DNA of 64,000 nt. Origin: Halichondria panicea (lineage: Eukaryota > Porifera > Demospongiae > Suberitida > Halichondriidae). The stretch spans positions 4,400,830 to 4,464,829 of the forward strand of contig NC_087389.1 of assembly GCF_963675165.1 (NCBI RefSeq), in the 5' to 3' direction. A model generated the notes under the pieces. The model had not been told where the DNA came from, searched no databases, and worked only from the letters and a program-made list of their open reading frames with translations. Every line of letters begins with the position of its first letter. The stretch's first letter is position 1. Of this stretch, positions 39,850-64,000 are shown in pieces. Position numbers and translations under genes: made by a program.

Positions 39850-42800
39850 TCAAGTAGTTCTGAACTGTCTTTCTAACACTCTCAGTTTGATATCCACTTC
39901 TCGTCTGTAGGTGATAGACATTAAGGATCGAACAGATTATAATTCCTTGCCTGCTCTATCGATTCAAACGCTTACTATACAACATCAGTCAATAATAGCC
40001 AACCACCTCTGTTCTCGCTTCTTAAAAAATGATGAAATTTAGTATTAAGTGAGGATACATTTGCGATGCTATCTGCTGCAGTGGACCCAACGATTTGTGA
40101 AGCTCTTCAAACTTGGACATAAACACATACATTGCCTGAGGGGAAATAAAACAAATACACTAAGTATAGCAAATAAATACAGTGTCCTATAATCATAGAT
40201 TGAAGAGTTAGAGGGATAGGAAACGGAGTGGTGCACGTGATGATTTTACATTGAATCTGCAGTGGAGCCTCGAAAAATATCCGCGTTACGAGGCTATTAA
40301 GCACATTTTTGCCGGGTAACTCCCAAAGCTGTGTTTCCTCGAGACATCATCTCTTTCAGCAATTTATAACACGCCTAGTCCATGAGCCACGTGTAGTACT
40401 TGCTAATGTCTGACCACACCCAGTAAAAAGAGACTTTCCATATATGTTCCCAAGGCTGTTTTAGAGCTATTGGAACATATAACGTGTAAGCGTGCTGGTT
40501 ATGACTATTACAATAGGTATAGACCTTGAAATATAAGTGAGTTGCACGGACTAAGCACAGTTACTTGTAGTTTATTATGCATTGAGTGTAGAAATAGACA
40601 TTGTTGTGATGGCCTCGATTAAACTGCAGCGTAGCGCGGATGTTACTCGAGATACAAATCGTTTCCTATCCCTCTAACTCTTCAATCTATGCTATAATCA
40701 AAGAGTTGAATTGGGATTTTGATACTAGATCATGTTACGAACTATAAGATATACTTACTGTATGTATGGAACATTGCATGCATGTATGTGTACGTTGTGG
40801 AATACTAAAAGTCTATCCATGCATACGTGCATATACTCGGGTGTTAAGTGCATGAAAAAGTAGAGGGTTGAATCGTACCTTGATATTGGAGTCCACTACA
40901 GTGTGTAAGTTATCCACAGACTCTCTGTGTAGTTCAATAGACTGCTTGGAACACACCGACATCTGTATGTGATGTATGAGAGAAAAGCAGCAGATAATTA
41001 TAGTGTCAACGATAGTAGAGGAACCTGCATATTGCAGTCACCCCCCAGGGCAGACAATATGCTGTATAATTATGTATAATAAAGGCAGGTTGAAACACAT
41101 TCTATATAGGGGACTTTGTGGGGCTTGGCTGTATTATATGATCATGCACAATACACACATATGCAGGTATACATGTAAGGGGTGAGAATGACAATAACGC
41201 CTCAGGGCATGTGATGTATGCACTAAAAGACTTCTCCTAAAAAATTAATTATGCTCATTTCATAATAATGATAGGATCTATCAGGAGCCCATAAAGAGAA
41301 GGAGCGGCTAACTACGGGGATCATATCTCGTAAGTGGTTATGACCGCATTTCCATATATGCAGGGTCCACTAAGTGGTTGAATCCCTACACGTATTATAC
41401 GCAATGCAGGGATGCGGTTTGCAACCACTTAGTCGCTTCCATACAAGGAAGTGCGGTTTCACCGGCAATTACGAGATGTGATCCCCGAGTGTACGTTGAA
41501 GTTGGCCGCTCCTTCTCTTTATGGGCTCCTGGATCTATATATACATTGAACTAACTAATATGAACCCCTTAACAGTTAAATCTGGACACAAAGTGTATGG
41601 ACACTTAAAAAAGTATACAAGCCTCTCTAGGAAAACAGTTTGTACAACACATCACATACTGCTATTAGAAAGCTTGGTGTGAACAAGAAAGCATACAGTT
41701 CATGCAGAGTGTACAACCACATATTACAAGCCAACAATGGCAATTCAAAACACTTCAATTCTACATCATGAAAAAATCGATTTGGGTAAAGGAAACATAC
41801 ACATACACATTCAACAAGTCTACGTGTTGTTCTGATTTGTGTTGGGTGCATTCTGTCTAGAGCCTTCCCCGGTATTCTGTTGAACAGCCGAATCATAGGC
41901 AGGTGGCAAAACACCACCACCTTGTTGTTGCCGTGTACCCCTACTCTCGACAGCCACTGTAGCCGGTGTGCCAGCTGTGGTCGAGGGGATATTCTGCTGC
42001 TGATAACGCATGGCCGACGAATAAGAAGGTGGAGCATCACCGAGGTTGCTAGGAGCGATGTCAGAGAGATTGGGAGCAGTAGCTGGGAGGGAGCGATCGC
42101 TTATTCCAGCTGCTCTCTGTATATATATAAGCGTGAAAACAAATTTATCAAAATGAGGTACTACTGCATGTACACTATGAATGCATCAATTACGTATAGT
42201 ATAAATTAAGCCCCTTTGGTGATCTTATCGAAAGAATGACTGACAGAGCTTGTGATTTCTTCTCACCTGGCCTTGTCCATTGTACATGGTGTTAGTAGAC
42301 GGAGGATAGTACTGATGGCCAACAACTCCGCCAGCTTGCGCGTTATTTTGTCCTCTCATGCGTTCATATCGTCTCTGTCTTCTCTGGTTGCTCCACGGGT
42401 AATACTGATTAGTTTCATACGGGTCTTGCCTTCTGTTCAAATTATTTGTCCCATTTGGGTTTCTTCGCCACGAACGGTTGCTCGATCCAAAGAACCTTTC
42501 GCTCTCGATACCTCTCGATCTTGGACTTTGGCACATTCTAAAACAGTATGAAGCCATTACACATAAAATCAGAATACCAGCAATTGCCGGTGCGATGTAG
42601 TAGAAATAGCTCCAATTGAAATAAGGGTAAATAAAGTCATTTCCATTGGGATCATTCACAGCTACCATTTCTTTCAGCTACTGAAGTACTAGTCTTGGAA
42701 GATTGACTGTGGTTAGTTATGGCAGCTGAAACTGCAACTACAGAGCTAATGTGACTGTCGTCATGAATAGAGTTGCATAGTGTATAGGACAGGTACAAGC

Positions 42801-45800
42801 TGTGAACAGTGTAGACCATTAAAATACATGTACACACTGCACGTGCTCAATTAGTGGAAAGCTATTTCTGTACAGTTCTACAAATTATATATAATAATAT
42901 GAGGTGAACAGCATGCAATCACTACAAAATAAATATGGTTTCAGGACACCTTTATAATTATGAAGCAATAATTACTATACATTTTGGTGTGCATGTGAGT
43001 CAACAACACTGCGTGAGCAAAATTGGTGAATGTAATAGTACAATTATTATATAGTTCTGGTACGTTCGTATCTATCTTGCATCATTGTCTTGTCTCACTG
43101 CCACATCGTAAGCTGGAGGCAAAACAGTAGTTATAGCTTCAGCCCCTGTGGGGAGGGGGTTAGCCGAGACGCTAAAGGTCAAAGGTGAGGGTGTTCTGGG
43201 TTGGTATCGCTGAGAGAGTATAGCTGTAGCGTAGGGAGGTGGGGGGTCAGTAGCCGAAGACGATTGTGGGTTCCCAAGGGGATCACTTGTTTCCGCTACT
43301 CTCTATACAGGAAAAGAAGACATGTACGGTGAAGGTCCTTCATGACCATTATTTTGTTATGCCATTATGAAAGGACTACTGCGTATATACTCGAAGGCAT
43401 GGAATTTTTTGTTTGCACATCAGTTTTATGGGTTTGAATCCCCAACAGGGGACAGATATATTGTACACAAAGAACATGGTTTCTGATACATGCATACAAC
43501 TGCATGATACACACATTAGCTTATAGTTACCTGTGTACTGAGGAAAGGGCTAGGTGGACTGTAGTATTGGTAGTCCACTCCTGGTTCAATCCTATACTGA
43601 TCATCTGTTTCAACCAATATCCGCCTCTGGGAATTACCCGATAAAGAAAACTCACTAGATGGATCGTCTCTCCTCAAATTATTTGAATCTGAAGGAGCTC
43701 GTCGGAAAAAGTTTTGACCTCTTTGAGAACGACGAAACCGAGAGCAGTACAAAAACACAGCAAAGGCTATGAACAGTCCACCAATAACAGAGGCAGCAAT
43801 GAAAATGTAGTCATTGTTGATGTCAAAACTTGAAATGATACCGCTCATTCTAGATTTAGTGTTTAGCTATATGACTTGTTTCACTAGCTTCTATAAAGGG
43901 GATGAGCTTCAAATAGGACTGAATGGACATGACATTTTGTGAACAACATTCAGCATTGTGCTGACATGTATCAAACATATAAGAGACAAAAATTATATAT
44001 AGCTATAGGGCACTCAATAGGAGAACCATAATTATATGCAGCAGATATATAGCTGGCCATGGAGGATTACAATTATCATTTACCTACTACACTGCACAAT
44101 GCAGTATATACACATGTAAAAATAGAAATAACCTCAACACCCAGCATAATTATAATTTATTATGCTTGCAGGAAACGAACAGAGAAATTATATGAACTCT
44201 GTTATCACAACTGATAACATGCATGTTAATAGGTCAACATGTCGGATATAAGAACACCATGTTAGTCGTTATAGTCAGTCACTATAGTCACTAAGTATAG
44301 TCGTTAACACAGTGTCTTTTGTCGTATGATTACAATTATCATTTACCTACTACACTGCATAATGCAGTATATACACATGTAAAAATAGAAATGACCTCAA
44401 CACCCAGCATAATTATAATTTATTATGCTTGCAGGAAACGAACAGAGAAATTATATGAACTCTGTTATCACAACTGATAACATGCATGTTAATAGGTCAA
44501 CATGTCGGATATAAGAACACCATGTTAGTCGTTATAGTCAGTCACTATAGTCACTATATAAGTATAGTCGTTAACACAGTGTCTTATAGTATTGGTGAGA
44601 TGGCCATCGATTCGTCGGTATTGTATCTTGTTTCACTCATTGGTGGTGCACTATTAGTGGCACTCTATATAGCAATGTGTGTGGGATGCTGTATTGCTCA
44701 TCTGAGAAGGAGAAATGAAAGTTATTCGAGGAGGGGAGATGATCACACACCACTATTACCGACAAGAAGAAGCAGGGTTATTTATCAGAGAGGAGCAGAA
44801 ATTACTGCCGCCACAGGACCACAATATACTTTCACTATCTCGAATCCTCTTACTAACGCGTTAAAACCAGAATCTGATGCTATTGGTGAGACAGTCAACG
44901 ACAGATCATTATCAAATGAACCACCACCCTCATACAATGAGGTTCAGGAACAAGGAACAGCTTTGCCTTCTTACACTGAAGTAATACAAGAGAATCGGTT
45001 GCAGAAATCTATAAATGCTGCAGGTCTAAGTAAAGTAACTGTAGCTCAAGAACAAAGGCAGCTTCAGGAAACAGCCACTACACTAGTACCAACAAGAAGA
45101 AGCAGAGTTATTTACCAGAGAGGAGCAGAAATTACAAGGATTGACAAACCACAGCCTCCGTGCAGAGACGTTACATGAAGCATAAGACAACAACAACAAG
45201 CAGTTAGAGCCATTGTTACAATACTATAGGTAGAGTGGAAGCCGATAGTAAACTCTGCACCGTAAGAACAAAATTCAGACACATGTCAAGCTATATAATA
45301 TTGCTGCATGCATGATACAGAATGTTTGCATATCGTATATAGCGGGTTATTTTTGAGAATAGAGGTTCAAATGCATGCATGACCTACAGTAGAATGTCTT
45401 TTAATACCGGATGGCCTTTATTCAAGGTACGTATTTACAGCTGAAGTGATCCTATACCAGGAACAATGGAAAAGGGTCACTAGAAAAGAAAGCTAGAATG
45501 TGGTTGTGGCTTCTTAATTTTGTTGATGTTCTTTATTGTAGGATGGAAATTGATCTAGGGTGCAATTTGATAACACTATTCTAGCCCAGAACAGGAGCCA
45601 TTATTTCTAATACTTCAAGCTCCTATAGTCCACAGTGCATGCATGTCTCATGGACTACTAAAACTCCATTTTCAGCATGCCTCAGGCTCTAATTTAATAC
45701 ACTGCTCCTGTTACTTCCTGTTTAGCCAGCATGTTCACTGCATTTATTGCAAGACAAGACTACTCTTGACAACACCTATTATTCATGTCACAGCCGAGGT

Positions 45801-48800
45801 GTTCACACTTCAGTGCTCTAGTTCTGATAGCGACAGGATATGTAGTTGATATCCAAATCTTAAGTCATTCCTTAGTAAACGAGATTCAGTATAATTACGT
45901 ATGTTGTTTCACTATAGCTTCTATAAAGGGGATGAGCTGAGACTGAACGGACATGACATTTTGTGAACAATGTACTCATTACTGCATTGACATGCATGTA
46001 TCGAACAATTTAGGGCACTCGATAAATACAGCATATTATATGCAGCTTATATCCCGTTGCTACGTTGTTGCCAAGTGCAATATGCAGCATAATGCACTGC
46101 TGAAAGTCATATTGCACTGACCGCAAAGTCATAATGCACTAACCACAAAACGCCCCTCTGGCAATTAGACAGACAATTAAATTAAAATTAAATTAATACG
46201 CATGAGAAATAACAAGTATCAAAGTGTGTCCAGCCATGCAGGAATGAATGTTCAGCACTGCTGGAGTTTCTTCTTGCAACCATGCAGGTTTTAAAATTGT
46301 CCAAGATTCATTTTGTGGAAGATTCTGTGTTCCTAGATCGACCTAGTCCTCGACCTCGTGATGCATGTCAATTCTGCTTCACCTTAGCACTAGAAGTGGC
46401 TCTTTTTGCTGGGGGCATGAGCTGTTTTGCAGCAGTGTAGAAGCGAGCTTTCTTGGCTTGGTTATGAGGCCGAGCGTAGACCAGCAGCTAATACATGTAT
46501 TCACTGAGTAGTGGGGTGGGACTGTTTCTTTGCAGCATGCAGTAAGTGGGGTGGGGCTGTTTTGCAGATTTCAGTTGGAACTCCAACAATTTTGTGTCAA
46601 GCCATTTGTCCGTCATGCCAATCTTATACGCTGCAGATACTGGCGTCTAGAAGAGAGAAGAGATGGAGCTGTGTCTAGAGTTGTCTCTGTCTTTTTTTTT
46701 GTGCTGTTTATATTGTGTTACTAGGACAGTGTTATGTTGCTATGCCCTCGGGATATAAACTAGTTATAACACGTGCACTCGGGCTGCATGGCATATATTG
46801 CACTCAGCCCTCGGGGCTGGCGCCCTCGTGCTTCAGTGCAATATATTCCATACATCCCTCGTGCCCGTGTTATAACTATAACATAATTAAAGGCCATGCA
46901 GGGTTATATACACATAACTAAATTGGGTCAACATTAATTTTGTTATCACATGTGACCCAGCATAGACATGGCATATTCGACTCCTGGCCACAACAGTACA
47001 CATACAAATGACCTCAACATGCACTCAAGGAAAACACACTAACAGCTTGGGGAATTATTTGCAGACAAATTACGGACTCTGTCTTCACAATGAACATGCA
47101 TGTCACATGTACAACAAGGTTCATAGTTTTATACGTCAAAATCTGAATTGATTCTATAATTAAACACAGATCAGATTCCGTACTTATTAAGCATATAGCT
47201 ATACGTATGACTCAACACTCAAACATGTTCCAGGAATTGAAGCAGGGATTAAGTTACTTCATGGGAAACAGATTATTTGGGAAATCTACATTAGCTGCTA
47301 TATATAGCACAATTAATGGTTAGGTCAACAGGTGTGTGTATAAAAGTACACCAAGTACGTCAAGATTATTAGATTCAGTAATTATGATTTATAGTCATTA
47401 GACAGTTTCTTGTTATTAGTACAGAGTACAGAGGAGATGACGGTGATACCAGCTATCAGTCAAGCGCAGAACAGACCATCCAATACTGGTTCTGATTCTT
47501 CAACATCTTCAACACTGTTAATTAGTGGACTTGGTGTTGGTATTCCAGGACTAATCGGTATAGCAATATTTTTGGGAATTGTATGCCGTGTTATGAAAGA
47601 TAGAATTAATCATCCACGAACTCGAACAATCTCAACTCGAGTGGACCCAGGAGTAAGAAGAATTAGACTCATTCATTACAGACAAACAGAATATAATAAC
47701 AACGACGACAATGACAACAACAACAACGATGACAACGATGACGTCGCCACCGCCGCCGCCACATTAGCACCACAACAACTTTTGGCTTTCTCACTTCCTC
47801 AAACTAGTCAATTAAGACAACCTGTAAACACAGACTCTGATTCTATTGATGAGACAGTCAATGACAGATCATTATCAAATCAGCCACCACCCTCATACTA
47901 TGAGGTTCAAGCACAAGGAAAAGCTTTGCCTTCTTACACTGAAGTAATACAAGAGAATCGGTTGCAGGAATCAGTTGAAACTATAAATGCTGCTGGTCCA
48001 AGTGAAGTAACTGTAGCTCAGGAACAAAGGCAATTTCAGGAAACAGCTGCTACAAGCTAGGATTGACATACGTACTATAGTATACATGTGTAGGTGCAAA
48101 GGCACCACACGAAGCACAATGCAATAACTCAGCAAAGCCATGCAAGCAGTTGAGATTGTGAACTATGCACTGTGGCAATTAAGTCAAAATACCAACTACG
48201 TACATGCGTGTATAATGACGATATTATACATGTGGATTGATTATATTTATCAACATTGTTAAATTTTCCCAGAATGCCGAAAGAAAGCATGCATACATGC
48301 AGCTGAGTACAAAAACACAACACAAACTATATACCCCCGGGTTAGGATTAAGGTTAGGGGTTAGCCCATGCATTGATAACAGGGGTACTATATAGATCCC
48401 ACTTGAGTGTGTTTAGCAGGGAACTATAATTATGATGTCGATGAGCTATGAAGCCTTGCTTGTACAACCACCTCCAGCCAAATCTCCGCAACTGCGAGAC
48501 AGTCATGGACTGACTGCATGGTCATCCGATTACAGAAGGGACCGAACTCAATCCTATCTTGACCTTTCGTCTCTCACAGTGTACTCCATCAATCTTGATG
48601 CTGATCATAGAAAGAGTTGTATATGTTAAACCAGCAATGTTGATCAAACATTTTTCAGAACCAAATTGACAGCAGTAAAAAAACACAGCATACGTTATAG
48701 TTTGGAAATCACTCTAGAACTATAGAGTGCCAGGTAGGAAGTTTTGACATCAATTCTTGTACGTGAAATCGCATTTCCTGTAAAGCCATGCACAAACACA

Positions 48801-51800
48801 TAATGAATGTTTGATGTTGCCACTGCCAACAGATGACCAACATGTACTCAGACATACTAATTTAGGGAAATATGAAACAGGAAGTTACTTCAAAGGAACA
48901 GATTATTTGGGAGAAAATGTATGGAATGTATATCATTATAATTACGTCACCACTGACTGACTCATGATTCATAAGACGTTTCACAACTAGACGAAAAACG
49001 CCAGATACATTGATTTCTGATAACACAAAGACATTTAAGGCGGCATCAGTTTCGACATCGAGCATTTGTGAACGACCAGAAGTGAATAAATTCTTCAGTA
49101 CTGTACATATACAGTGGCAATTTAATCTTAAGAAGGCCCCTTGGTAGGGTGGAGCTTTCGAACGCATGATAAAATGTGCAAAACGATGCCTAAGAAAATC
49201 CGTAGGGAAAACCTGTCTGACCTTTGATGAACTCTTGTGACAGAGGTGGAAGGGTGCTAAATTCAAGACCCCTTACTTACATGATGTTACAGAGGCCCTG
49301 ACACCATCTCACCTATATACTGGTCGGATATAGGATCCTCTCTTTCCAGATGCCACAGAGCATGAGAAGACTCACAATGAGGACTATTCTCCTGAGAACC
49401 TCACCCGAAGAGCGAGTCATCTCCCTAGAACGCTGGATACATTCTGGAAGCGATGGAAACAGGAGTATTCATTAGAGTTAAGAGAGTTTCATCGCACTCG
49501 CCAGCAAAAGGGAGCCACCTATACTCTTCAGGTGGGCGAAGTTGTGGCGGTTTACGCAGATGAAGGACACCCACGAGGAATGTAGAGATTGGGTAGAGTC
49601 GAAGAGCTCATCCCAAGCTCAGATGATAAGCTTTATGGCGTGCGTGTAAAGGTAATATCTAAGGGAGGGCAGATCAGGATCATTCGGAGATCTGTCCAAC
49701 ACATAATACCCGCTAGAAGTTCGTACTGATCCCCAAGAGACACAGCACACGAATATGAGTGATCACTCAACTGAGAACGTTATCGTTCGAGCTCAAGATA
49801 CACAGAACACCGATCGCCCAACTGAGAATGTCGTTGTTCGGGCACGTTCGACTAAATTCTTTTACTGAGTGCTTGATCGAAGATGATGAACTAATGAACT
49901 GATTAACTGTATGTGCGTGTATTGATTAGCTATATGTATATCATTATAATTACGTCACCACTGCATGACTATCATTTTACTATCTATTTGTACAACATAT
50001 CTTGTGCACGTCTGGAGACTCAGTCAGCCACATGTTATATTACATGAAAAAGTGAAACAAAGTGAAGTGAAGTAAATATATAACAAGTAGACAGCTATAA
50101 TAGGTGAGTGTAATAGAGATCCAGTTAAGAATCCACTACAACATGTGACCCATGCAGCATAGACATGGCATATTGGACTCCTGACCACAACAGTATACAT
50201 ACAAATGATCTCAACATGCACTCAAGGAAAACACACTAACAGCTTGGGGAATTATTTGCAGACAAATACGGACTCTGTCCTCACAACAAACATGCATGTC
50301 ACATGTATAAGTTGCACTGTACATCAAGTTAGTCATTACAATTACAGACATGTATCTTTTGGGAACCCTGCACTGTATGCTATTGAACATGCCAGCGAAT
50401 GAAGACACCATAACAATCAATGCCAACCTATAATATTGCTGCTAATGTCACATAATGTTTTCGTATTATTATACTACCGTATAGCTGGTAATTTTCGTTA
50501 TTTTCGTGGGCAGGCTGACCTCAACGAAATTTTAACGTAGGCGTGGCTTATCGGAACGTAGGAATGCCGTGCAGCCACGAGACTAAACGAAATTTTTACT
50601 CACGAAAACCACTGTTTCTCGAGTTGAACAATTTTTTACCCCACGAAACTTACCCGCTATACGGTATACAAGGGAAAACAAACATGCATGCAGAATTGCT
50701 ACAGACATGTATATAAACACTGCATAAACAGTCATATTTAGATTGTCCCCGAAATAGATGGTCACAATGTCCTTATTGACCGGGGTAACCTTATAAATTA
50801 ACCTTTAACTAAGCAAACTATAAATTAATGAGTATATATTAATAATTATACAGCTCATCACAATGTATATACAGTTAATACATGCATTACTATTTTGTGT
50901 ACACTATTGTGGAAATAATAAGACATTTCTCTACATATTGTGATATTACAGTAAGTGTATACTGCTACACAGTCATATGCTATTATATATGTGGCACACT
51001 TGACACTATGGATATATGTAAACATAAATATAAGGATGACTGACGTGTATTGTTGGCGAATTATGATGACACATACATGCACAGACAGTGACACACACTC
51101 TCATGGATATACTATAAGCCATTCAGTTTCAGCTAGCTCTTGTACTGACATAAGTGCTCTATATCAATGATATCGTTCTCCAATATCTTGCTTTGAAGTC
51201 TTGCTTGTACAACCACCTTCAGCCAAAACCTCGCAACCATAATGACTGCGAGAGAGTCACTGTCATCCAGTCACAGAAGGGTCTATTTTGCTTTCAAACT
51301 CATTCCCATATCGATCTTTTGTCTCTTGACTATATATAATATAGTGCCATTGTCCACTCAAGGTTTAGAATTTCTAGTTCTGATGTTCGACTCTTCACAG
51401 CTATTGGAGTATAATTATGCTGGTGATATAGTCCATTCTTAACACGTAATTAATAGTATAATAAGGCCACTATTCATGTTTCTGGTTTGGGAATCACCCT
51501 ACATAATGAAAGCACCGCGGGTGCATGCTGATCCGTAGAGGTGCCAAAGCTATAATAACATATACACACATGCATTATATCATGATGGATATTTTTAATT
51601 TTGCTGCATGCAGGCAGAAATCCAGGAATCATAGGGAAACTCAAAGAGTGGGTAATGATCGACGATGGATTATTGTTAAAAATTATTGATGCCAAAAGTT
51701 CAAGTCTAAAATTAGTGGTTGGATCAGAGCCTTGCAGCTCTCTTCTTACTCTTCCAACTATACCAATAGCTAGAATATAGGCATAACTCGAGAACAAAGC

Positions 51801-54800: not shown

Positions 54801-57800
54801 CCATCTCGATCTTTTGTCTTAGAGTCATTTTCGACTCTTCACAGTGTACTCCATCCATCTTAACTCGTTGACTTGCTGATCATAGAAAGAGTTTTATATG
54901 TTAAACCAGCATTACTTGAAATGTTGATCAAACATTTTTCATCGACAGCAGCAAAGAAAAAACACAGCATAAGCTATAGTTTGGGAATCACTCTAGAACT
55001 ATAGAGTGCCAGGCAGGAAGTTTTTACATCAATTCTTGTACATAAAATCGCATTTCCTGTAAAGCCATGGCACAAACACATAATAAACGTTTGATGATTG
55101 CCACTGCCGACAGATGACCAACATGTACTCAGACATGCTACAGGAAGACAATGTTTGGGGAAATATGAAACAGGAAGTTACTTCAAAGGAACAGATTATT
55201 TGGGAGAAAATACGAAATCTTAATTATAGCTGTTAACACATAATCAGGCCAACAGGTCGACGTATATAAGTACACTCGATCACTATATAGAGTCAGTAAA
55301 AACAGCTATATAGTGATTAGTATACAGTTTTTAAGTACATGCAGAGGAGATGACGGTGATACCAGCTATCAGTCAAGCGCAGAACAGACCATCCAATACT
55401 GGCCCCAATTTTTCACCACTAATATATGGTGGACTTGGTGGAATTCCAGGACTAATTTGTATAGCAATATGTCTGGGGTGTATGTGCCGTCATTTGAGAC
55501 ATAGAAATAATCACCCACGAAGATTTATGTTTCGAGTGGAGCCAATTGCAGGAGTAAGAACAGCTAGGGCCACTTATCAGAGAGGAGCAGAATATAATGC
55601 TGCTGCCACAATACAACCACAACAACCTATCGCTTTCTCAATTCCAATGGTACCTCAAACTAGTGCATTGAGACAACCTGTAAACACAGACTCTGATTCT
55701 ATTGGTAAGACAGTCAACGACAGATCATTATCAAATGAACCACCACCCTCGTACTATAAGGTTCAGGAACAAGGAACAGCTTTACCTTCCTACACTGAAG
55801 TAATACAAGAGAATAGATCACAAGAATCAGTTGAAACTATAAATACTGCTGGTCCAAGTGAAATAACTGTGGATCAGGAACTTCAGGAAACAGTCACTAC
55901 AAGAATCGACATACCACATCCAAGTGAAGGTGCAGAGACGTCACATGAAGCACAAGACAATACCGTATAGTGCTAGAAATGTATGCGTGATATTACACTC
56001 TAATGCTATTTATGTGAGTGTCTATCATACTGTATATCGCACAATTATTGGCTTTTATTCGAGGCCTGCATGTATACAATCCCTATTGAAATCGCGACAT
56101 TTAATCGCAAATTAATAGCATAAATAAAATCGTATAGCGTTTTCGTAGCCTTAAAATTGGCCAAAACGCAATATTTTAACTAGATACGTAGCACTATAAT
56201 GGCATAATTATGCAGAAACAACAAGAAGTTGGAGTAAATGCTACAAGACTATAGCTCGGACAGATTGTGAACAATGCCATATAATAATCATTACCTGAGG
56301 TGCGCGTGGGCGGCCACGGGTATAGTAGTCTGTTGGTTGGTTTGTTTGTGATAGCCTTTTCTACTCACCTGGATGCCACAGCACTGCGTTTACAGCATGG
56401 ATAGCCTTCATACAACAATATCTTGGTTTAAATAGTGGCAGATTTTGATGTTAAAGCTTCTTTGTCGAGCAAAAGCTAAGAAGCTTGAACTTGCACATTG
56501 GGCAGCTAGCTAGCTACACGTGGCCTTGACTATGCATTTGCAGCTGAAGTGATCCTTACCAGGAACAATTGACAGTCAAAGCATGGTTATTGACTGACTC
56601 TGGATCCTATACTCTAGCCTGGCAGGAGCCATACTTCTCTAAGTCTAAGACTCCAGGCTTCTTTGCTGTGATCCCAGTCCACAGTCCATGATGCATGTAC
56701 ATTGTTAATTGCTCTTGAGCCGTTACTGTGCTAGTCAGTCATACATGTTACATGCACTGCATTATAATTATATCACTCTTCTGGTTTCTTTATTCATGTC
56801 ACCAGCCGAGGGTTTGCACTTCAGTGCTCTAGTTATAATGTTTATTTGAAAAAGGATAATTTAGAATGCCGAAATTGAGAGTGTATAGAAGTTATCCTAT
56901 TCCCAGGGGTAGTATAATTATGATGAAGTAGATGTGAAACATGCACTGAAGAGATGTGCATGTATCACTCATTCTAGTAAAACACAGATGTATAGCACTT
57001 TATAGTAAGCTAATCAGTGCATGCTAGCTATATAACTTTGGGTAAGCGTTTGATGTCAATAAAATCAAAACCACAACAGTACACACATAGAAAAGACCTC
57101 AACACTCAAATATGCTCATGCAAGGAAAACAAAATTATAACGCAGGAAGTATAAAGTGGATTACTGGGAAGACATGAACTTTGTCATCACAGCTGATTAT
57201 AGGTCAGCCTGTCATCCATATGTATATAAGTAAGTAACAGTCAGTATAGCTATACAGTACAGCTATTCATTATAGCAAAGTGTCGATCATTATTAGTAGA
57301 GAAATATGACTGTGATACCACCTATCAGCCAATCGCAGAACAGAACATCCAATATTGATCCCTCTGGATTATCGTGGTTATATTATGTTGCAATTGTTGT
57401 TGGTGTAGTCTGTATAACAGTGTGTCTGATATGTATATGCTGTCATTTGAGAAAGAGAAATGATCGTCCACAAGAATCTACTAGGTCTAACGTAGTGCCA
57501 AGATTTATCGAAACAAGCGGGGCCACTTATCATAATCAGAGAGGAGCAGAATATAATGTCGACACAAGACCACAACAAACGTTCACTTTCTCAATTCCAA
57601 TGGTTCGAGCATTAAGACAACCTGTAAGCACAGACTCTGATTCTATTGATGAGATAGTCAATGACAAATCATTATCAAATCAGCCACCACCCTCATACTA
57701 TGAGGTTCAAGCACAAGGAAAAGATTTACCTTCTTACACTGAAACAATACAAGAGAATCGGTTGCAGGAATCGGTTGAAACTATAAATGCTGCTGGTCCA

Positions 57801-60800
57801 AGTGAAGTAACTGTAGCTCAGGAACAAATGCAGCTTCAGAAAACAGCCACTATAAAAGGATTCACATCGTATGGCGTCCTATAGTGCAGGTGCAGAGGTG
57901 TCACGTGAAGCACAAGACAACACAAGTTATTTCATGAGAACAGATAATTTGGGAGGAAACACAAAATCTATATATACGTAGCTGTTAACAATGATTAGGA
58001 CAACATGTACGTGTGTACACCAAGTTAGTCGATCACTATAATTATATAGATTCAATAATTATATAGCTAGCCATTATTAGCACAGTTTCTATGTTATAGT
58101 ATAGACGAGATGACGGATTTAAGAACAGTGTTAATAATTAGTGTAAGTGTTAATAATTAGTGTAAGTGGTGGTGATACTCTAGGACTATGTTGTATAGCA
58201 ATATGTCTGGGAATTGTCTGCCGTATTTTGAACGATACAAATAATCGTCCATGAACTCTATTGGAGCCAAGAAAAGTAAGAACAGGCAGGGTCACATATA
58301 CAAGGATTGACATGCCATGGTGTGCGGAGGCGTTACATCACTCAGCAATTACAACAACCAATTGGATATTAAACAACTTAGAGTATCTTAACTGTGAGTT
58401 TGATATCTCAATTTGTCATGACCAGTGACAATTGATCTTAAACCACATCATATAGCGCACTTAAAATGACCCCAACACTCAGACATGCTACAGGAAGACA
58501 ATGTTTGGGGAAATATGAAACAGGAAGTTACTGCAAAGGATTATTATTTGGGAGAAAAATACAAAGTCTAAATAGCTGTTAACACATAATCAGGTCAATA
58601 AGTCGTGCTTAAGTACACTGAGTTAGTCGATACTGCAAAGGATTATTATTTGGGAGAAAAATACGAAGTCTAAATAGCTGTTAACACATAATCAGGTCAA
58701 TAAGTCGTGCTTAAGTACACTGAGTTAGTCGATCACTATAGAGTCAGTAATTATATAGCTAGTACAGTTTTTGAAGTACAGATGAGATGACAGTGATACC
58801 AGCTATCAGTCAAGCGCAGAACAGACTATCCAATACTGGCCTCAATTTTCAACACTGATATTTGGTGGACTTGGTGGTGGTATTCCAGGACTAATCTGTC
58901 TAGCAATAATTATGTCTGGGGTGTATGTGCCGTCATTTGAGACATAGAAATAATCTCTCGAGTGGAGCAAATTGCAAGAGTAAGAATAATAGCCTCCTTC
59001 ACTGGCCTCTGAAGAAGAAGTGCGGCCTGGAATTGAAGCAAGAGTAAGAACAGCTAGGGCCACTTATCAGAGAGGAGCAGAATATAATGCCGCCGCCACA
59101 GTAGAACCACAACAACCTATCGCTTTCTCAATTCCAATGATACGTATGCATCAAACTAGTGCATTGAGACAACGTTATATTGGTGAGACGGTCAATGACA
59201 GATTAATTATTATCAAATGAACTACCACCCTCATACTTATAAGGTTCAAGCACAAGGAACAGCTTTGCCTTCTTACACTGAAGTAATACAAGAGAATAGA
59301 TCGCAGGAACTATTTTGGGTGTGGTTTAACTGGAAATAGAGAGCAGCATTATCCTCTAGACAGAACCGCATCAATTAGATTTGAGGTAGGGTCGTTTTTA
59401 GCAGTGGCTATTTTCTGAAATGTGGCCACCATGCTATTTTCGGCCAAGCTGCACGATCCCAAGGGTGGCCGGATTAACAAGAGTCTACTGTATCGAGATG
59501 GGAATGAGTTTAATAGCAAAATGGACTCGGATTACAGTGACTGTTTCGCGGTGGTCATAGTTGCGAGGCTTTGGCTAGAAGTGGTTGTACAAGCAAAACT
59601 TCAAAGCAAGAAGTTGGAGAACAGTCAGTGTCATTGGATAACGAGCACTTACGGACAACAACTTGAACTGAATGGCTACGTATATACATAATTTCATGAG
59701 CGTGCATGTATGTCATCATGCATTTAGCCAACAATTTTTTATAATTTGTGATTCACAATCACATTCTACTGCCTATATTGTACCATGTCATATGCCTTAA
59801 ATCAGTACATGTATACAGTGAAACCTCTAATCCCTTATATATAAAACAGCCATTTAACTGTGTTAGCAGGCCACTTCTCTTTATTGCTGGCAACCATGCA
59901 GGTCAATATTACACACACAATAATTATTAAGGGTGACCACAGGTTTCATTGTGTATAACACAACACGTACATACATATTTATAAGCAAGTGTATATCATA
60001 ATACAGTATATATAGTACAATCATGTGTAGCATCAGAATTATAAATAAATGCACATGCAAGTTGATAAGTTGTTTAATGCATGTACAAACACAAGGGAGA
60101 TCATTTCCTTTGTGAACGTTATACACTATACTTTTCACAAAAGAGCTAACAGTAGCAGCCAACTATCAAAGAATTTGTATGCTAATAAGTATTCTTGGCT
60201 CAGAGAAGACACTACACTTAGGTCACAGTATAGGACAGTATAGACACATCAGAAGCAGCTAACAATCTATTATAGCTACCTAAAGAGCAGTTAGAGTATA
60301 CTTCTGAGATTCAAAAGTCTATACATGTATATAGCTTATATGTACCAGTAGCTGCTCACTAATGGAGAGACCGGGTCTTACCATCCCCACAGAGTCACTA
60401 AACACAGTCATTATTGTGAGCACAGCCTCTGCTACTGGACTTATTGTGCTACTGGTACTCAACCTCTTTGTGTGTGGATGTATCGTGGCAATGTGCCTCA
60501 AACAAAGAAATGAACCAACGTACCAACGATGCACACCGACGTCAGTGCCTTCAGTGCCTTCGATTAGGGCTCCTGTTAGAGTACAGTTCCAAGAAGAAGC
60601 TAACTACTCTGAAATAGCTCCTCGTACTGAAGACATGTTCCAAATGAGGCTAATACAGAATCATCGTATTACAATGAGTCAACCACATTTGATGACAACG
60701 TCATTTGGACCTCACGGTCTACATAGTGAACATGTAGCTATGAGTCAACCGCACTTGTCTACAAGACAATGGATATCGCAGAGAACAACTTCTTTCGAGA

Positions 60801-63800
60801 ATATTTACTCATCAGTCGTGGATTCTCAAGAAGATCTAACCGAAGAACACATCCACCAGGTACATGCATGCATACACGTACAATGTCTGCTAATACAAGC
60901 TAGTAGTAAATCATTATGACACCCGGCTCATTAGATTAGGCACAAAATGCCATAGGCTAATGGTACAGAGTCCCCGTAGATTAAGTATACAGACAGATAG
61001 AGGATTCATAGATAATTCAGGCACACATGGATTAGTGAATCTCATCAGTTTGATAAGGTACAAACTATTGCACTCTCTTAAAGGTGTACATATAGTACAG
61101 TACATATAGTACAGTACATGTACATGATGGTCTAACCTCTCTAATTGCATGGGGAGGCAGTGAACATTTGCACTGATACAAAAGCAGTATAATTATGAAC
61201 ATCAACTCTCCTACGTCTTTTAAAAACAGTCGCTATGTATTAGAGTGAACTTCTTTATGTCCACACCTTTATGCCCTACATAATTATGCTCATATACAAA
61301 TTGTGCAAAGGTTAGGCCAGCCATTATTACACCAGCAAAATTTAAGTACCATGTATAAAATCGTTTCTCAGCATAAGTATACACAAATGCTCCGAGGCTC
61401 TGAAGTGTTGTGATGGTGTATGTACGGTAGCTATAAAGTACATTATTATAATATTGCTATACAGGTCCCTTTGTACCGTGAACTGGAGGGGGTGCCCATG
61501 AGAAGGGAGTACTCGAGTGAGAGACATCTGTCACTAGGGGAACGAGCATACACACTACAGAACTCGCTGTCACAGAGCGCAGAAATAACACTGATTTAGG
61601 AAACGCTTAATTATCACTGTTATCTATTTATTGTGTTTACGAATACTTATAGGGACTGTATTTTCTGAAAGTGCATGCCAACATTTAATGATATAATCTA
61701 AGAATAGCAACAACAATACCTGAAACTAAAAAACGTTCACAAGATTATTGTAAAACAAAATTGAAAGTGCATTATAATTATGCAAACAATCTCCAAATGT
61801 TTACTAAGCATGGGTATTTCGTTTACTACAACAAGTTCAAACACGGTTAAAATTTCGCAAGCAATAGCAAATGAAATATTCACAACAAATTACCCACTGC
61901 ATTCAAAAACTATTACACAGATGATTACTGAAGCTACAGTTATCCACACAATGTTAAGTCTTAGAGAACATCTCTTAACAACACGCACAGCTTATAACTA
62001 TAGTAAAACCATAACAGAAAACGTATGGGGATTTCATATTAAAGCACCTGACAATGCAATGGTACACATTGTACAGTTAGAAATGAGCCTCAACGTTAAT
62101 TATACAGTATTAATTACTAGCAAGTGAAAACCTTTGCGACTAAGCCAAATCAGCAGAAATGTTTACACTTTCGCGATCTGCGTTCTGGCAAGGATCATCA
62201 TATCATCGTAATATCTGTATTAAATAGGTTTTTGCGAAGCAATCAAAACTCGCAAAATTCGCGTATGTTTGATGCTCGATGCTCGCAAACATTCTAGTAA
62301 TAGTAATTACGGTGGTTGCACTCAAACTAATGTGGTTAGCCCTTTATTTACATAATTGCACAATGAATCGACAGTCCATAAATTATTATGCCCACTACAA
62401 AAACATTCTCTTTACAAAAATGTACATTTCAACCATTCTTTCTATTGACTGACTCACTGCATGTAGACTGTTCCTGAGGTTATCCATAACGTGGTTGAGG
62501 TTGCCAGCTATGACCTTTGCCCTCCTCTCAAGGTCACCCAGGACGTCGGGATCAATGAGGGACACACCCTCCGAGAGCTGGGACAGAGGTAACGTCCAAA
62601 TCAGTGAAATAAAAAAAAAATGACATGTAGTGGGCATAACAATTAAAATTAACGTATGGCCTGTGTATACAATAGCTACGTAGCAACTACGTTCTTATAA
62701 ATTTTTCAATGCTACATGTAGGACTAAAATTGAGATATTGGCCTCCTCTTCCTATGGTTGATACAGCTGGCACTTGATAAGTAATTAAAAGGTCACGTAC
62801 AAGTACAGTGTGTATTGTAAAAACAAATGAATGTGTGTGCAGCTAGAACGAATAGAGCTTACCCCAACTTCGTAGGAGTTCTCTTCAGCGTCTGTACAGT
62901 ACATGAACAAAGTCACATCAGAGCATTAGTTAATAATTATGTTATGTTAATTGCAATGTATAAACTTAGTAGTACTTGGACTGAAAGATCACGAGATATA
63001 CTCACTAGCTGTTCCGGATAAAGATCTTTCCCAAGATCTTTCTTTATCATAAACTGAATGTACGTATTAACGATTTAGATACCCACGCATGTAGCCACGC
63101 CCACCTTCACTGTCCTCTCCCTCCACCTCCGCCCCCTCCTCTCCGTCATACTTCTCCAGTACATCAACTGCCACCTCATCAGCCACCAGCTCACTGTGGG
63201 GGGTATTACATGTTTAATTGAAATACTCTAGGGGTACCCTCAGGCTAGAAATACACGCACAAAACCATTGTGGCATCAGAATAAAATGTATTCTGCTGCG
63301 CTATATATACTACAGACCTTAACATAGAGGTAATCTACACCATGATGATCGATGTAAGCTAGGTAGGGTTAGGGTTAGTCCATATAACCTACTTTCATTC
63401 ACATGTTCTAGACCCATACCCCTAACCTGAACCGAAACCCAGCTAGTGTACACCTTATACGAAATGCAAAAACTTTATACTCAATATTTACTGTAAGTAG
63501 CCTCTTGGACATCGATGTATAATTATTTGCACGAGCAAAAAGGAAGTACATTCACACACACCCACACCCACACCCACCCACGCACACACACAAGAACACA
63601 CCTCTTATTATTCTTGCTGGTGGGTCTGGCATAGAGCAAACCAGGGGATTCGAATTCCGTAACCCTGGCAATGTTGCCCTCCTTATTGATCATTAGATAA
63701 GGGGACATTCGTCCACTCTTCTCGCCCCCTGAGGCCACATCTGTTTCCTCAGTACCTGTTCGTCCCACCTCACCACCTGTGGCCAACTGCTCCTCATTAA
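39850..63800 (-). CDS. BORCS6: BORCS6 (lyspersin), 7 exons, 5' end beyond window
   Basis: BORCS6 is a subunit of BORC, the complex that couples lysosomes to ARL8 and kinesin. Exons found, all joined in phase by GT-AG: 63800-63602, 63193-63105, 62891-62863, 62577-62458, 40962-40879, 40135-40059, 39904-39850. The conserved C-terminal helical region reads across the last four exons: IDPDVLGDLERR, then SVCSKQSIELHRESVDNL, SNIKAMYVFMSKFEELHKSL, GPLQQIASQ and REVDIKLRVLERQF, followed by a stop. It matches the order and spacing of vertebrate BORCS6 (IDPEVLRDLE, YRDAVDSL, MYTLLARCEEL, RQVRDIRRTLEVLE). The N-terminal part is acidic and low in complexity. The first exon is beyond 64000. The intron from 40963 to 62457 holds a cluster of other genes. 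Confidence 0.9.
41282..41531. mobile_element. MITE with 8-base duplication
   Basis: The left end CAGGAGCCCATAAAGAGAAG and the right end CTTCTCTTTATGGGCTCCTG are inverted repeats of about 27 bases, including GGAGCGGC/GCCGCTCC. GGATCTAT lies directly before the left end and overlaps the right end, fitting an eight-base duplication of hAT type. The interior is noncoding. Confidence 0.75.
41820..42668 (-). CDS. single-pass membrane protein with PPSY/PPAY motifs
   Basis: Exon 1 (42668-42267) and exon 2 (42116-41820) join in frame (GQGQ to RAAG), giving about 232 residues. A short outer N-terminus carries aromatic residues. The membrane span is about 21-44 with flanking cysteines (YCFRMC) that could be palmitoylated. 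A long arginine-, asparagine- and tyrosine-rich cytosolic tail follows. Exon 2 holds two WW-domain ligands, APPSY (about 162-166) and PPAY (about 205-208). The neighbour at 43072-43848 has the same exon layout, so the two are tandem paralogs. The architecture resembles adaptors for NEDD4-type ubiquitin ligases; that role is inferred. The gene lies in the large BORCS6 intron. Confidence 0.75.
43072..43848 (-). CDS. single-pass membrane protein with PPPPY/PPAY motifs
   Basis: Exon 1 (43848-43531) ends at CACAG-GTAACT and exon 2 (43302-43072) begins after TATAG, joining in frame to give about 182 residues. The membrane span is about 14-35 and is followed by YCSRFRR. The tail has a YQYYSPPSP stretch, then PPPPY (126-130) and LPPAY (167-171) in exon 2. 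Intron position, span and motif spacing match the gene at 41820-42668. Neither is closely similar in sequence to the plus-strand family, but both share its layout of outer stub, span, and paired proline-tyrosine motifs. Confidence 0.75.
44065..44587 (+). repeat. 263-base tandem duplication of a promoter region
   Basis: The block 44065-44320 is repeated almost without change at 44328-44587, directly before the gene at 44600. The visible differences include four extra bases that create TATATAAG in the proximal copy only. Confidence 0.9.
44555..44562 (+). promoter_or_regulatory. TATA box
   Basis: TATATAAG lies 38 bases before the start codon at 44600 and is absent from the upstream copy of the duplicated block. 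Confidence 0.45.
44600..45178 (+). CDS. L/PPxY single-pass membrane protein
   Basis: A single-exon gene encodes 192 residues from the ATG at 44600; an in-frame ATG at 44486 lies upstream of the TATA box and is disfavoured. The membrane span is about 8-33, with a cysteine cluster (CVGCC) at its inner end. The tail contains PTRRSRVIYQRGAEIT (54-69), the family core DSIGETVNDRSLSN-like segment, PPPSY (108-112) and LPSY (122-125). PPxY and LPxY are ligands for WW domains, typical of NEDD4-family ligase adaptors. At 164-179 the PTRRSRVIYQRGAEIT segment appears a second time and replaces the ending seen in relatives. It lies in the BORCS6 intron. Confidence 0.8.
   Translation: MAIDSSVLYLVSLIGGALLVALYIAMCVGCCIAHLRRRNESYSRRGDDHTPLLPTRRSRVIYQRGAEITAATGPQYTFTISNPLTNALKPESDAIGETVNDRSLSNEPPPSYNEVQEQGTALPSYTEVIQENRLQKSINAAGLSKVTVAQEQRQLQETATTLVPTRRSRVIYQRGAEITRIDKPQPPCRDVT
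45179..46409. other. intergenic with a duplicated 3' flank
   Basis: The block at about 45431-45850 (GCTGAAGTGATCC, CCAGGAACAAT, AGGAGCCAT, TATTCATGTCAC, CACTTCAGTGCTCTAGTT) recurs in the same order at 56520-56880. The 3' flanks of two paralogous genes were thus duplicated with them. No gene is seen. Confidence 0.55.
46410..46770. repeat. dispersed repeat A, copy 2
   Basis: This copy matches 780-1065 (GGGTGGGGCTG, TTTTGTGTCAAGCCATTTG, AGATACTGGCGTCTAGAA, GGATATAAACTAGTTATAAC). It is noncoding. Confidence 0.6.
46755..46882. repeat. imperfect inverted repeat
   Basis: TTATAACACGTGCACTCGGG and TATATTGCACT on the left are mirrored by AGTGCAATATATTCCATACA and CCCGTGTTATAA on the right, around a GCCCTCGGGGCTGGCGCCC centre. 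It adjoins repeat A and may be its end. Confidence 0.65.
47339..47346 (+). promoter_or_regulatory. TATA box
   Basis: TATAAAAG sits in a block (GTGTGTATAAAAGTACACCA) conserved before the paralog at 53766. It lies about 90 bases before the start codon at 47437. Confidence 0.6.
47437..48060 (+). CDS. L/PPxY single-pass membrane protein
   Basis: A single-exon gene encodes 207 residues starting MTVIPAISQ, the start shared by four paralogs; an in-frame ATG nine codons upstream is not conserved. The outer stub is Ser/Thr rich, the membrane span is about 26-50, and a basic stop-transfer follows. An asparagine/aspartate tract (87-102) encoded by AAC and GAC codon runs follows. The core DSIDETVNDRSLSNQ leads to PPPSY (150-154) and LPSY (164-167), then NRLQESVETINAAGPSE. 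Paired PPxY/LPxY motifs suggest recruitment of WW-domain ubiquitin ligases to a membrane; the extracellular role is unknown. It is closest to the gene at 53766, including upstream and downstream flanks. Confidence 0.82.
   Translation: MTVIPAISQAQNRPSNTGSDSSTSSTLLISGLGVGIPGLIGIAIFLGIVCRVMKDRINHPRTRTISTRVDPGVRRIRLIHYRQTEYNNNDDNDNNNNDDNDDVATAAATLAPQQLLAFSLPQTSQLRQPVNTDSDSIDETVNDRSLSNQPPPSYYEVQAQGKALPSYTEVIQENRLQESVETINAAGPSEVTVAQEQRQFQETAATS
48972..49729 (+). mobile_element. BEL/Pao retrotransposon integrase remnant
   Basis: Reading the plus strand across several in-frame stops gives an integrase core end (ISDNTKTF, APW-GG-FE, LRKSVGK) followed by LTPSHLYTG and a DUF5641-type C-terminal region (FWKRWKQEY, LQVGEVVAVY, HPRG-RLGRVEEL), as in BEL/Pao elements. 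The stops show the copy is dead. No LTRs were found. A direct repeat of about 28 bases containing GTATATCATTATAATTACGT flanks it (48928 and 49936). Confidence 0.8.
49935..51497. other. intergenic, copies of gene-flank sequence
   Basis: No gene is supported. The region at 50140-50290 (GACATGGCATATTGGACTCC, ACACTAACAGCTTGGGGAAT) repeats 46965-47100. The region at about 51185-51300 repeats the 3' flank found at 48450 and 54680 (GCTTGTACAACCACC). These are relics of a duplicated unit whose gene was lost. Confidence 0.5.
50475..50666. mobile_element. MITE, TACCGTATAGC termini
   Basis: TACCGTATAGCTGGTAATTT at the left is mirrored by TTACCCGCTATACGGTA at the right, with CGAAATTTTAACG/CGAAATTTTTACTC inner arms. 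It is noncoding. Related ends occur near 14290-14320 and 7264-7490. Confidence 0.7.
51498..51960. repeat. dispersed repeat B, copy 2
   Basis: This is the same element as 26061-26612, starting AATGAAAGCACCGCGGGTGC and ending with the CGCTTGCGCATGCGCACC box. The copies differ by scattered substitutions and short indels. Confidence 0.8.
52429..53352. mobile_element. piggyBac-type element with TTAA duplication
   Basis: The element begins CCCTTTAACCGTC and ends GACGGTTAAAGGG, a perfect 13-base inverted pair. It is flanked on both sides by TTAA (52425-52428 and 53353-53356). TTAA duplication with CCC..GGG ends is diagnostic of piggyBac. At 924 bases it is too short for a whole transposase. Confidence 0.88.
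52886..53140 (-). CDS. acidic N-terminal piece of piggyBac-like transposase
   Basis: Inside the piggyBac element an 84-residue frame starts MARLFTCADVLEQLEDSN and is rich in Asp, Glu, Ser and Gly (SSGDDSAYEGE). This is the character of the N-terminal region of piggyBac transposases and PGBD proteins. The catalytic DDD core is missing, so no activity is expected. An upstream in-frame extension to 53221 lacks these features. Confidence 0.55.
   Translation of the reverse strand: MARLFTCADVLEQLEDSNGDVSSGDDSAYEGERIVGYLPKATSFMPDADELSGTEDMHDMDLDARAMDQDGERPGEGSLCDSGK
53695..53702 (+). promoter_or_regulatory. TATA box
   Basis: TATAAAAG lies about 65 bases before the start codon at 53766, in the same conserved block as at 47339. 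Confidence 0.6.
53766..54341 (+). CDS. L/PPxY single-pass membrane protein
   Basis: A single-exon gene encodes 191 residues and is the closest relative of the gene at 47437. The start MTVIPAISQAQNRPSNTG, the Ser/Thr stub, the span and the tail are nearly identical. It lacks a block of about ten residues after the span and has a shorter, differently ordered Asn/Asp codon tract. PPPSY and LPSY are present (LPSYTEAIQ). The conserved 5' block and at least 350 bases of 3' flank are also shared with 47437, so a unit of well over 1 kb was duplicated. Confidence 0.82.
   Translation: MTVIPAISQAQNRPSNTGSDSSTSSTLLIGGLGVGIPGLIGIAIFLGIICRVMKDRINHPRTRATSTRRIQYRQTNNDDNYNDNDNDDAATATVATLAPQQRLAFSLPQLRQPVNTDSDSISETVNDRSLSNQPPPSYYEVQAQEKALPSYTEAIQENRLQESVETINAAGPSEVTVAKEQTQFQETAATS
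55263..55270 (+). promoter_or_regulatory. TATA box
   Basis: TATATAAG followed by TACACT lies about 80 bases before the start codon at 55350, in the position of the TATA boxes of the paralogs. Confidence 0.5.
55350..55970 (+). CDS. L/PPxY single-pass membrane protein
   Basis: A single-exon gene encodes 206 residues. It starts MTVIPAISQAQNRPSNTGPN; the span is about 24-47 and is followed by CMCRHLRHRN. Instead of the Asn/Asp tract it has ATYQRGAEYNAAATIQ, related to the YQRGAEIT segment of the gene at 44600. PPPSY is followed by YKV where relatives have YEV, and then by LPSY. The C-terminus (RIDIPHPSEGAETSHEAQD) is longer than in the 47437 pair. This mosaic of segments from different paralogs suggests gene conversion. 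Confidence 0.82.
   Translation: MTVIPAISQAQNRPSNTGPNFSPLIYGGLGGIPGLICIAICLGCMCRHLRHRNNHPRRFMFRVEPIAGVRTARATYQRGAEYNAAATIQPQQPIAFSIPMVPQTSALRQPVNTDSDSIGKTVNDRSLSNEPPPSYYKVQEQGTALPSYTEVIQENRSQESVETINTAGPSEITVDQELQETVTTRIDIPHPSEGAETSHEAQDNTV
55971..57232. other. intergenic, duplicated flank
   Basis: No gene is supported. It contains the 56520-56880 block shared with 45431-45850. Confidence 0.4.
57233..57240 (+). promoter_or_regulatory. TATA box
   Basis: TATATAAG lies about 66 bases before the start codon at 57306. Confidence 0.5.
57306..57884 (+). CDS. L/PPxY single-pass membrane protein
   Basis: A single-exon gene encodes 192 residues starting MTVIPPISQSQNRTSN. The membrane span (about 24-48) is rich in valine and ends in a cysteine cluster (CLICICCHLRKRN), a likely palmitoylation site. 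The tail has ATYHNQRGAEYN, DSIDEIVNDKSLSNQ, PPPSY and LPSY, then NRLQESVETINAAGPSE as in the 47437 pair. The C-terminal end (IKGFTSYGVL) is unique. It is more diverged in the stub and span than in the tail, which suggests stronger constraint on the cytosolic motifs. Confidence 0.82.
   Translation: MTVIPPISQSQNRTSNIDPSGLSWLYYVAIVVGVVCITVCLICICCHLRKRNDRPQESTRSNVVPRFIETSGATYHNQRGAEYNVDTRPQQTFTFSIPMVRALRQPVSTDSDSIDEIVNDKSLSNQPPPSYYEVQAQGKDLPSYTETIQENRLQESVETINAAGPSEVTVAQEQMQLQKTATIKGFTSYGVL
58110..58345 (+). pseudogene. truncated L/PPxY gene copy
   Basis: Relics of the start region, span (TATAGCAATATGTCTGGGAA, CTGCCGT) and C-terminus (ACAAGGATTGACATGCCATG) follow each other. The central part with the PPPSY and LPSY codons is deleted, and a stop follows the start. 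A short repeat TTAATAATTAGTGTAAGTG occurs twice at its beginning. Confidence 0.75.
58788..59310 (+). pseudogene. decayed L/PPxY gene copy
   Basis: This copy is closest to 55350. It begins ATGACAGTGATACCAGCTAT, but a lost base after the NTG codons breaks the frame. An insertion of about 50 bases at about 58990-59040 is flanked by GCAAGAGTAAGAA on both sides. The region TNTDSDS is deleted, and further breaks surround the PPPSY-equivalent (CTACCACCCTCATAC). The copy stops at about 59310, where a transposon fragment begins. Confidence 0.8.
59310..59496. mobile_element. CAGTAGACTCTT-type element fragment
   Basis: The sequence TTTTGGGTGTGGTTTAACTG to CCGGATTAACAAGAGTCTACTG matches the interior and end of the elements at 13765-14110 and 16071-16295. 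It truncates the 3' end of the neighbouring pseudogene. Confidence 0.6.
59497..60361. other. intergenic, nothing recognised
   Basis: Apart from a short frame at 59422-59691 that begins inside the transposon fragment, no gene or repeat is supported. Confidence 0.35.
60362..61599 (+). CDS. single-pass membrane protein with YxxPhi motifs
   Basis: Exon 1 (60362-60859, donor CACCAG-GTACAT) and exon 2 (61465-61599, acceptor CTATACAG) join in frame, giving 210 residues. The outer stub is about 15 residues and the membrane span about 16-44, with cysteines at its inner end (CGCIVAMC). The tail has three tyrosine motifs, NYSEI (Y82), IYSSV (Y149) and LYREL (Y170), and the hexapeptide MSQPHL twice (105-110, 127-132). 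There is no PPxY motif. Size and topology match the neighbours, but the tail suggests SH2- or clathrin-adaptor binding. It is the last gene of the cluster inside the BORCS6 intron. Confidence 0.75.
61600..62457. other. end of large BORCS6 intron
   Basis: A 115-residue open frame at 61780-62127 is Thr/Ile/Asn-rich with no recognisable domain, and I do not accept it as a gene. No other feature is seen before the BORCS6 exon at 62458. Confidence 0.3.
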
Positions 63801-64000
63801 CTGATGTGTCTAATAAACAAAATTTGAATATTCGCAGGGATTATCTTCAGAGTGAACAACAACGCACACTATAATTTCGGACATAGTTAAGTATATGAAT
63901 ATGGGGATAATCCACGGGTATAATGGACATGGATGAGACACAATCAAGAGATTTACTATATAGCAAAGGTGAAATAAGTGCATGTATAATAATTATGGTT

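Follow-up and report, generated by a model that had tools for sequence, protein, structure and literature searches.

The lysosome-positioning gene BORCS6 of the sponge Halichondria panicea very probably holds, in a single intron of 21,495 bp, eight complete genes predicted from sequence to encode small single-pass membrane proteins, and one group of them, designated A, has duplicated locally together with its upstream regions. To the overall reading, namely a single working BORCS6 gene with an enlarged intron and locally multiplied genes for PY-motif adaptors, we assign a probability of about 0.65. According to it, the second-to-last coding intron of BORCS6 would have expanded to 21.5 kb, small single-pass membrane-protein genes would have settled there, the A genes would have multiplied through local DNA duplication, and transposons would have contributed further length. 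The intact A copies would be transcribed independently, antisense to BORCS6, and the BORCS6 transcript would simply lose the whole intron by splicing. In the proteins of group A and of a second group, B, a short outer segment would be followed by a single membrane helix and then by a tail in the cytoplasm, whose two PY motifs could be recognized by the WW domains of HECT ligases of the NEDD4 type; on the analogy of Commissureless, these proteins may recruit a membrane partner to the ligase and thereby direct it to endosomes and lysosomes. Transcription, splicing, topology, ligase binding, and cargo are what we infer here from genomic sequence.

The window, i.e., the whole stretch of 64,000 nucleotides that was analyzed (C13:4400830-4464829), belongs to a genome of 131.5 Mb in 39 contigs; unless a contig is named, positions refer to the window. 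The BORCS6 model comprises six minus-strand exons with in-frame joins and GT/AG ends, yielding a spliced piece of 213 amino acids, and its open frame runs on upstream past the window edge, where exon edges are not fixed. The host features are as follows:

63602-63809, minus strand: BORCS6 exon with GT/AG sites, frame open into the following exon
63105-63193, minus strand: BORCS6 exon with GT/AG sites, frame maintained
62863-62891, minus strand: BORCS6 exon of 29 nt, frame maintained if the candidate 63006-63037 is left out
62458-62577, minus strand: BORCS6 exon preceding the long intron, in which the PF10157 match begins
40963-62457, minus strand: BORCS6 intron of 21,495 bp with the nested cluster, supported by splice sites, phase, and a continuous domain match
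40879-40962, minus strand: BORCS6 exon following the long intron
40022-40135, minus strand: final coding exon of BORCS6, stop included

The candidate exon at 63006-63037 was rejected, its inclusion breaking the frame and its skipping keeping it. The long intron has the donor GTGAGTCA after 62458 and the acceptor ...TCACATACAG before 40962, and the two exons that flank it are each a whole number of codons in length and meet in phase 0. When spliced, the BORCS6 model exceeds the cut-off (35 bits) of PF10157, the C-terminal helical domain of BORCS6, with 80.6 bits (E=1e-22) over 87 contiguous residues (protein 116-202; model 4-90 of 101), compared with 23.2 bits for the part before the long intron and 43.1 bits for the part after it. 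The sole related chain of known structure, PDB 9tqb_B (named BORC subunit 6 domain protein), matches residues 112-202 in an alignment that runs ungapped through the junction (E=1.6e-13). The sequence-only reading had placed these two exons on either side of the cluster and joined them in phase; the exons were recovered with exactly those boundaries, and the join is confirmed by the GT/AG sites, phase 0, and the continuous PF10157 and 9tqb_B matches. With the BORCS6 domain continuous across the junction, we regard the nesting as very probable. The remaining introns of the model measure 408, 213, 285, and 743 bp, as expected from the earlier remark that they stay below 1 kb, and the long intron exceeds them 29- to 101-fold.

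When the whole genome was searched in six frames for BORCS6, eight matches up to E=10 were returned, of which the top one is the exon before the long intron and another is the last exon; the remaining six are weak (E 0.007 to 1.2), and four of these contain stops. No second coherent BORCS6 locus was found in this search, and tblastn detected no further copies of exons 62458-62577, 40879-40962, and 40022-40135 in the window. Two BORCS6-like matches on C12 (L003 and L004; 23.1 bits and two stops each) were judged from their frames to be noise.

Within the long intron, the following features were delimited:

41262-41540, no strand assigned: small inverted-repeat, MITE-like element, scored at about 40 genomic places, itself among them
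41820-42116, minus strand: B1 exon 2, PPSY ... PPAY tail
42267-42668, minus strand: B1 exon 1, transmembrane helix (by hydropathy)
43072-43302, minus strand: B2 exon 2, PPPY ... PPAY tail
43531-43848, minus strand: B2 exon 1, transmembrane helix
44600-45178, plus strand: A1, single-exon gene, single-pass protein with PPSY/LPSY
47437-48060, plus strand: A2
50141-50310, plus strand: geneless relic of the stretch upstream of A2 (self-comparison)
52069-52175, plus strand: geneless relic of an A upstream region (self-comparison)
52425-53356, plus strand: piggyBac-like element of 932 bp, TTAA ends and matching terminal repeats
53766-54341, plus strand: A3, protein 92% identical to A2
55110-55349, plus strand: A4 upstream module, with ATTATTTGGGA 155 bp and TATATAAG 87 bp before the ATG
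55350-55970, plus strand: A4
57306-57884, plus strand: A5
58110-58320, plus strand: A pseudogene 1, truncated, with stops
58787-59313, plus strand: A pseudogene 2, broken frame with stops, closest to A4
60362-60859, plus strand: C exon 1, transmembrane helix
61465-61599, plus strand: C exon 2

The predicted genes thus comprise three sequence groups, i.e., five single-exon A genes on the plus strand, two two-exon B genes on the minus strand, and one two-exon C gene on the plus strand, accompanied by two A pseudogenes, promoter relics, and recent transposons. Eight ATG-to-stop open reading frames of at least 130 amino acids occur in the intron, where 200 first-order simulations gave 0.195 on average, and the longest has 230 amino acids against a simulated maximum of 165; seven of the eight belong to the predicted genes, and one (41627-42037) lies in another frame over B1 exon 2. 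Seven intact genes had been counted before, a number that we correct to eight, while the two pseudogenes were found as announced, at about 58110-58320 and 58787-59313. The cluster had also been described as a whole gene family nested in the intron. No sequence search linked groups A, B, and C to one another, so the term gene family fits A, weakly B, and not the whole set, and a single family is too strong a claim for three unlinked groups. Nor is the family nested as a whole: a further intact A gene, the sixth, was located at C7:5593728-5594300 on the plus strand (L015, L028-L029).

Group B genes lie on the host's own strand, and B1 and B2 are weakly similar (E=0.13), each encoding two PPxY motifs. 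Judged from exon lengths, B1, B2, and C each have a phase-0 intron. No paralogue of gene C was found, and its protein lacks the PPxY pair, having only VPLY. The poly(A) signals AATAAA or ATTAAA occur within 300 bp of the stop in only one of the five A genes and within 600 bp of it in neither B gene; with these signals mostly missing, the ends of the A and B genes are unproven.

Protein identity among the A copies of the intron ranges from 92% (A2/A3) down to 51% (A1 vs. A3). Self-comparison revealed that the A2 unit and its flanks are repeated around A3 (1,875-column alignment, 80%), and the upstream DNA of the five A genes, the two pseudogenes, and the C7 copy can be aligned in patches. The A genes are intronless and may therefore go back to an older retrocopy. 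At silent sites, A2 and A3 differ less from A5 within the PY module than across the N-terminal half, a hint of possible gene conversion in the tail among A2, A3, and A5, with tree support of only 55-60 in the 3' half.

All six intact A genes, including the C7 copy, have a TATA-like motif (TATAAG, TATATAAG, or TATAAAAG) 71-98 bp before the ATG, although the motif is short; neither pseudogene has one in its upstream region. The sequence ATTATTTGGGA or a one-letter variant precedes A2, A3, A4, and both pseudogenes, and C7 has only TTGGGA, A5 has CTGGGA, and A1 has neither. A genome search with the A4 upstream region gave five matches, all in the BORCS6 intron and A4 included, a count that is a lower bound since the search missed the upstream regions of A1, A2, A3, A5, and C7. 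As every intact copy carries its own TATA-like upstream motif, separate transcription of each is likely, and we consider it probable that the A genes are transcribed from their own promoters. Host transcription, as the sequence-only reading held, would have to cross the cluster.

Outside the intron, the C7 copy is the one group A gene detected, in a search that may have missed distant A relatives. On one flank of it, a minus-strand open stretch matches residues 1164-1232 of the GCN2 chain 8t7t_A; on the opposite flank, another matches residues 1396-1458 of this chain and, in addition, PF12745 (32.2 bits, cut-off 24.4). Farther upstream, the minus strand also carries a protein-kinase piece (PF00069, 38 bits). 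Two other pieces of this locus, scanned singly, matched no Pfam family. The C7 gene thus appears to lie antisense between exons of a gene resembling GCN2/EIF2AK4, a second antisense-in-host case that, with one such copy, can be chance. In an unrooted tree, the C7 copy groups with A2/A3 with 97% support; a root on the C7 branch is compatible with this tree, and copying may have gone either way between the intron and C7. An origin of the C7 gene as a processed retrocopy is unlikely, as it retains about 146 bp of common DNA upstream of the ATG.

The presence of transposons in the interval, also announced earlier, was substantiated by two repeats, each of which, itself counted, was scored at about 40 genomic places. 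The element at 52425-53356, which we take to be piggyBac-like from its TTAA ends and terminal repeats, gave 42 matches including itself (40 scored of 272 candidates), the best others being 99% identical, and the MITE-like element gave 84 matches with both inverted-repeat strands counted (40 scored of 210 candidates). These copies indicate that recent transposon traffic lengthened the intron. By eye, a remnant resembling a retroelement integrase end, with stops, was seen at 49150-49760, and an inverted-repeat element at 39455-39705, directly 3' of the BORCS6 stop. Two recent tandem duplications are located at 44065-44585 (263-bp units, 97%) and 58529-58733 (102-bp units, 99%). Elsewhere in the window, related membrane proteins with a common Cys-rich C-terminal region are encoded at 2129-3312, 5990-7168, 10111-11667, and 14530-15816; COLFI matches were sub-threshold in two of the three that were scanned and absent from the third. 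This group is probably another local expansion.

The nine nested proteins, i.e., the eight of the intron and the C7 copy, each have a single hydrophobic helix near the N-terminus, preceded by only 9-31 residues without any cysteine, and no folded extracellular domain was found in any of them within so short a Cys-free segment. In the 15 residues after the helix, there are 3-5 lysines or arginines, compared with 0-1 before it, and from this charge bias, by the positive-inside rule, the tail is predicted to be cytoplasmic. All six intact A proteins contain PPSY and LPSY at a constant distance of 13 residues from start to start. In a comparison of three pairs whose tree branches do not overlap (A2-A3, A1-A5, A4-C7), which covered the 36-residue PY module and the N-terminal half, pN/pS is 0.38 (p=0.0065) in the former and 1.04 (p=0.79) in the latter; selection is therefore visible on the PY module of the A tail and not on the N-terminal half, for which, given the pooled ratio, we do not claim positive selection. 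No Pfam family reached its cut-off for any nested protein, and with all scores below the cut-offs, membership in a Pfam family was rejected; the best Commissureless (PF15957) score, that of A5 (E=0.0015, 19.2 bits), is under the cut-off of 27. The earlier label receptor-like does not suit proteins with so short an N-terminal side, in which A conservation sits in the PPSY/LPSY tail. Together, the short Cys-free N-terminal side and the conserved tail point to WW-domain/NEDD4 adaptors, and the A proteins look like adaptors rather than receptors; for them, we would give a PY/NEDD4 adaptor role an even chance. Possible ligase partners exist in this genome, since WW matches lie directly upstream of HECT matches on the same strand in at least three loci (C7:173-177 kb, C7:5497-5502 kb, and C17:5298-5302 kb).

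Two alternatives concern the locus itself. If the BORCS6 halves were now separate genes, or BORCS6 were broken, the interval would be plain intergenic DNA, which would accord with its size relative to the other host introns and with the ATG at the start of exon 40879-40962. Against this very unlikely history, the methionine in question aligns with an internal methionine of 9tqb_B, PF10157 is complete only with the halves joined and either half continues to match the portion of the model that belongs to it, the splice sites and phase at the long intron are intact, and no replacement BORCS6 copy was found elsewhere in the genome. The least likely of the explanations considered is an assembly misjoin that placed an unrelated cluster into BORCS6: the near-identical tandem duplications (44065-44585 and 58529-58733) are sites at which an assembler may slip, but the window contains no N letters, the contig is 6.57 Mb long, the two tested intron repeats are dispersed through the same genome, and misassembly would not produce A-copy identities spread from 92% to 51%.

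Other alternatives accept the nesting and concern the function of the guests. A diversifying receptor or recognition cluster, as first proposed, would account for the tandem A copies and pseudogenes, for a dN/dS of up to 1.63 in the N-terminal half in single pairs with a pooled pN/pS of about 1, and for the hint of tail exchange given by the silent distances of A2/A3 to A5; we nevertheless consider it unlikely, as the 9-31 residues on the N-terminal side are Cys-free and without a detectable domain, and the pooled ratio does not exceed 1 beyond chance, so that relaxed constraint fits equally. The antisense orientation to a host gene of all six intact A genes could suggest that their antisense transcription is a switch tuning BORCS6 and the GCN2-like host. 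Five of the six share one intron, which reduces the pattern to two host cases, and excerpts of PMC8467205 already describe opposite-strand nesting as a general bias in the animals studied; such a switch is thus highly unlikely. A bolder version is more doubtful still, in which the A genes would form a lineage-specific Commissureless-like NEDD4 adaptor family living solely as antisense intron passengers of lysosome and amino-acid-response genes (BORCS6 and the GCN2-like kinase), with transcription coupled to that of their hosts; were this coupling true, the production of sorting adaptors and of the lysosome-positioning machinery would exclude or tune each other.

Among the guest genes compared here, human EVI2A and EVI2B encode single-pass proteins. 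Excerpts of PMC4394429 describe them, with OMG, in one intron of human NF1, all antisense, and also describe human MOB2 as host of six KRTAP5 paralogues. MOB2 resembles BORCS6 in hosting a nested paralogue cluster and NF1 in carrying several coding genes in one intron, the NF1 guests being all antisense; both differ from BORCS6 in having unrelated nested proteins and far larger hosts. In the five-sponge table of PMC10282587, as far as excerpted, nested genes number 2432 of 19,578 genes in Aphrocallistes vastus, 3358 in Amphimedon, and 5032 in Sycon, with low counts in Oopsacas (83) and Ephydatia (0), and the authors attribute low counts in some genomes to annotation settings; for the ctenophore Hormiphora californensis, excerpts of PMC8527503 give 2357 nested genes, 1109 of them with a transposon on at least one side. 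Like the case of BORCS6, these are genes within introns of compact genomes, but the BORCS6 intron holds several paralogues plus unrelated look-alikes. With thousands of nested genes in three of the five tabulated sponges and the guest groups of MOB2 and NF1, judging from these excerpts, the arrangement was overstated when it was called unusual. Among the titles and abstract openings retrieved on BORCS6 introns and nested genes, this arrangement was not reported, and a query for multiple nested genes in the same intron gave no match. Nested gene clusters are already known, and the BORCS6 layout is a good but not novel case. What makes it valuable is that the growth of a well-delimited paralogue cluster within a single intron of a conserved gene can still be followed from its duplication steps, its relics, and recent transposon insertions, and that nature here provides a test of how well a host can bear an intron of 21.5 kb filled with apparently active genes.

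As to the encoded proteins, the TMEM51, WBP-1, and TMEM52 families comprise small membrane proteins, some with PY tails, and resemble the nested proteins in type, all matches being under the curated cut-offs. Commissureless is a single-pass protein. This Nedd4 substrate adaptor of Drosophila is like the A proteins in having a tail with PPxY and then LPSY; according to the excerpted text of PMC12101832, PPCY (220-223) and LPSY (229-232) lie in its cytoplasmic tail, and its PY motifs are required for Robo1 ubiquitination and lysosomal degradation. It differs from A in motif spacing (9 vs. 13), and the sequence match is not significant. That A is a Commissureless is not supported, and our leading guess, drawn by analogy, is that A may work like Commissureless. 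Judging from the nested proteins, PPxY-LPSY membrane adaptors akin to Commissureless may be able to arise outside insects, possibly convergently.
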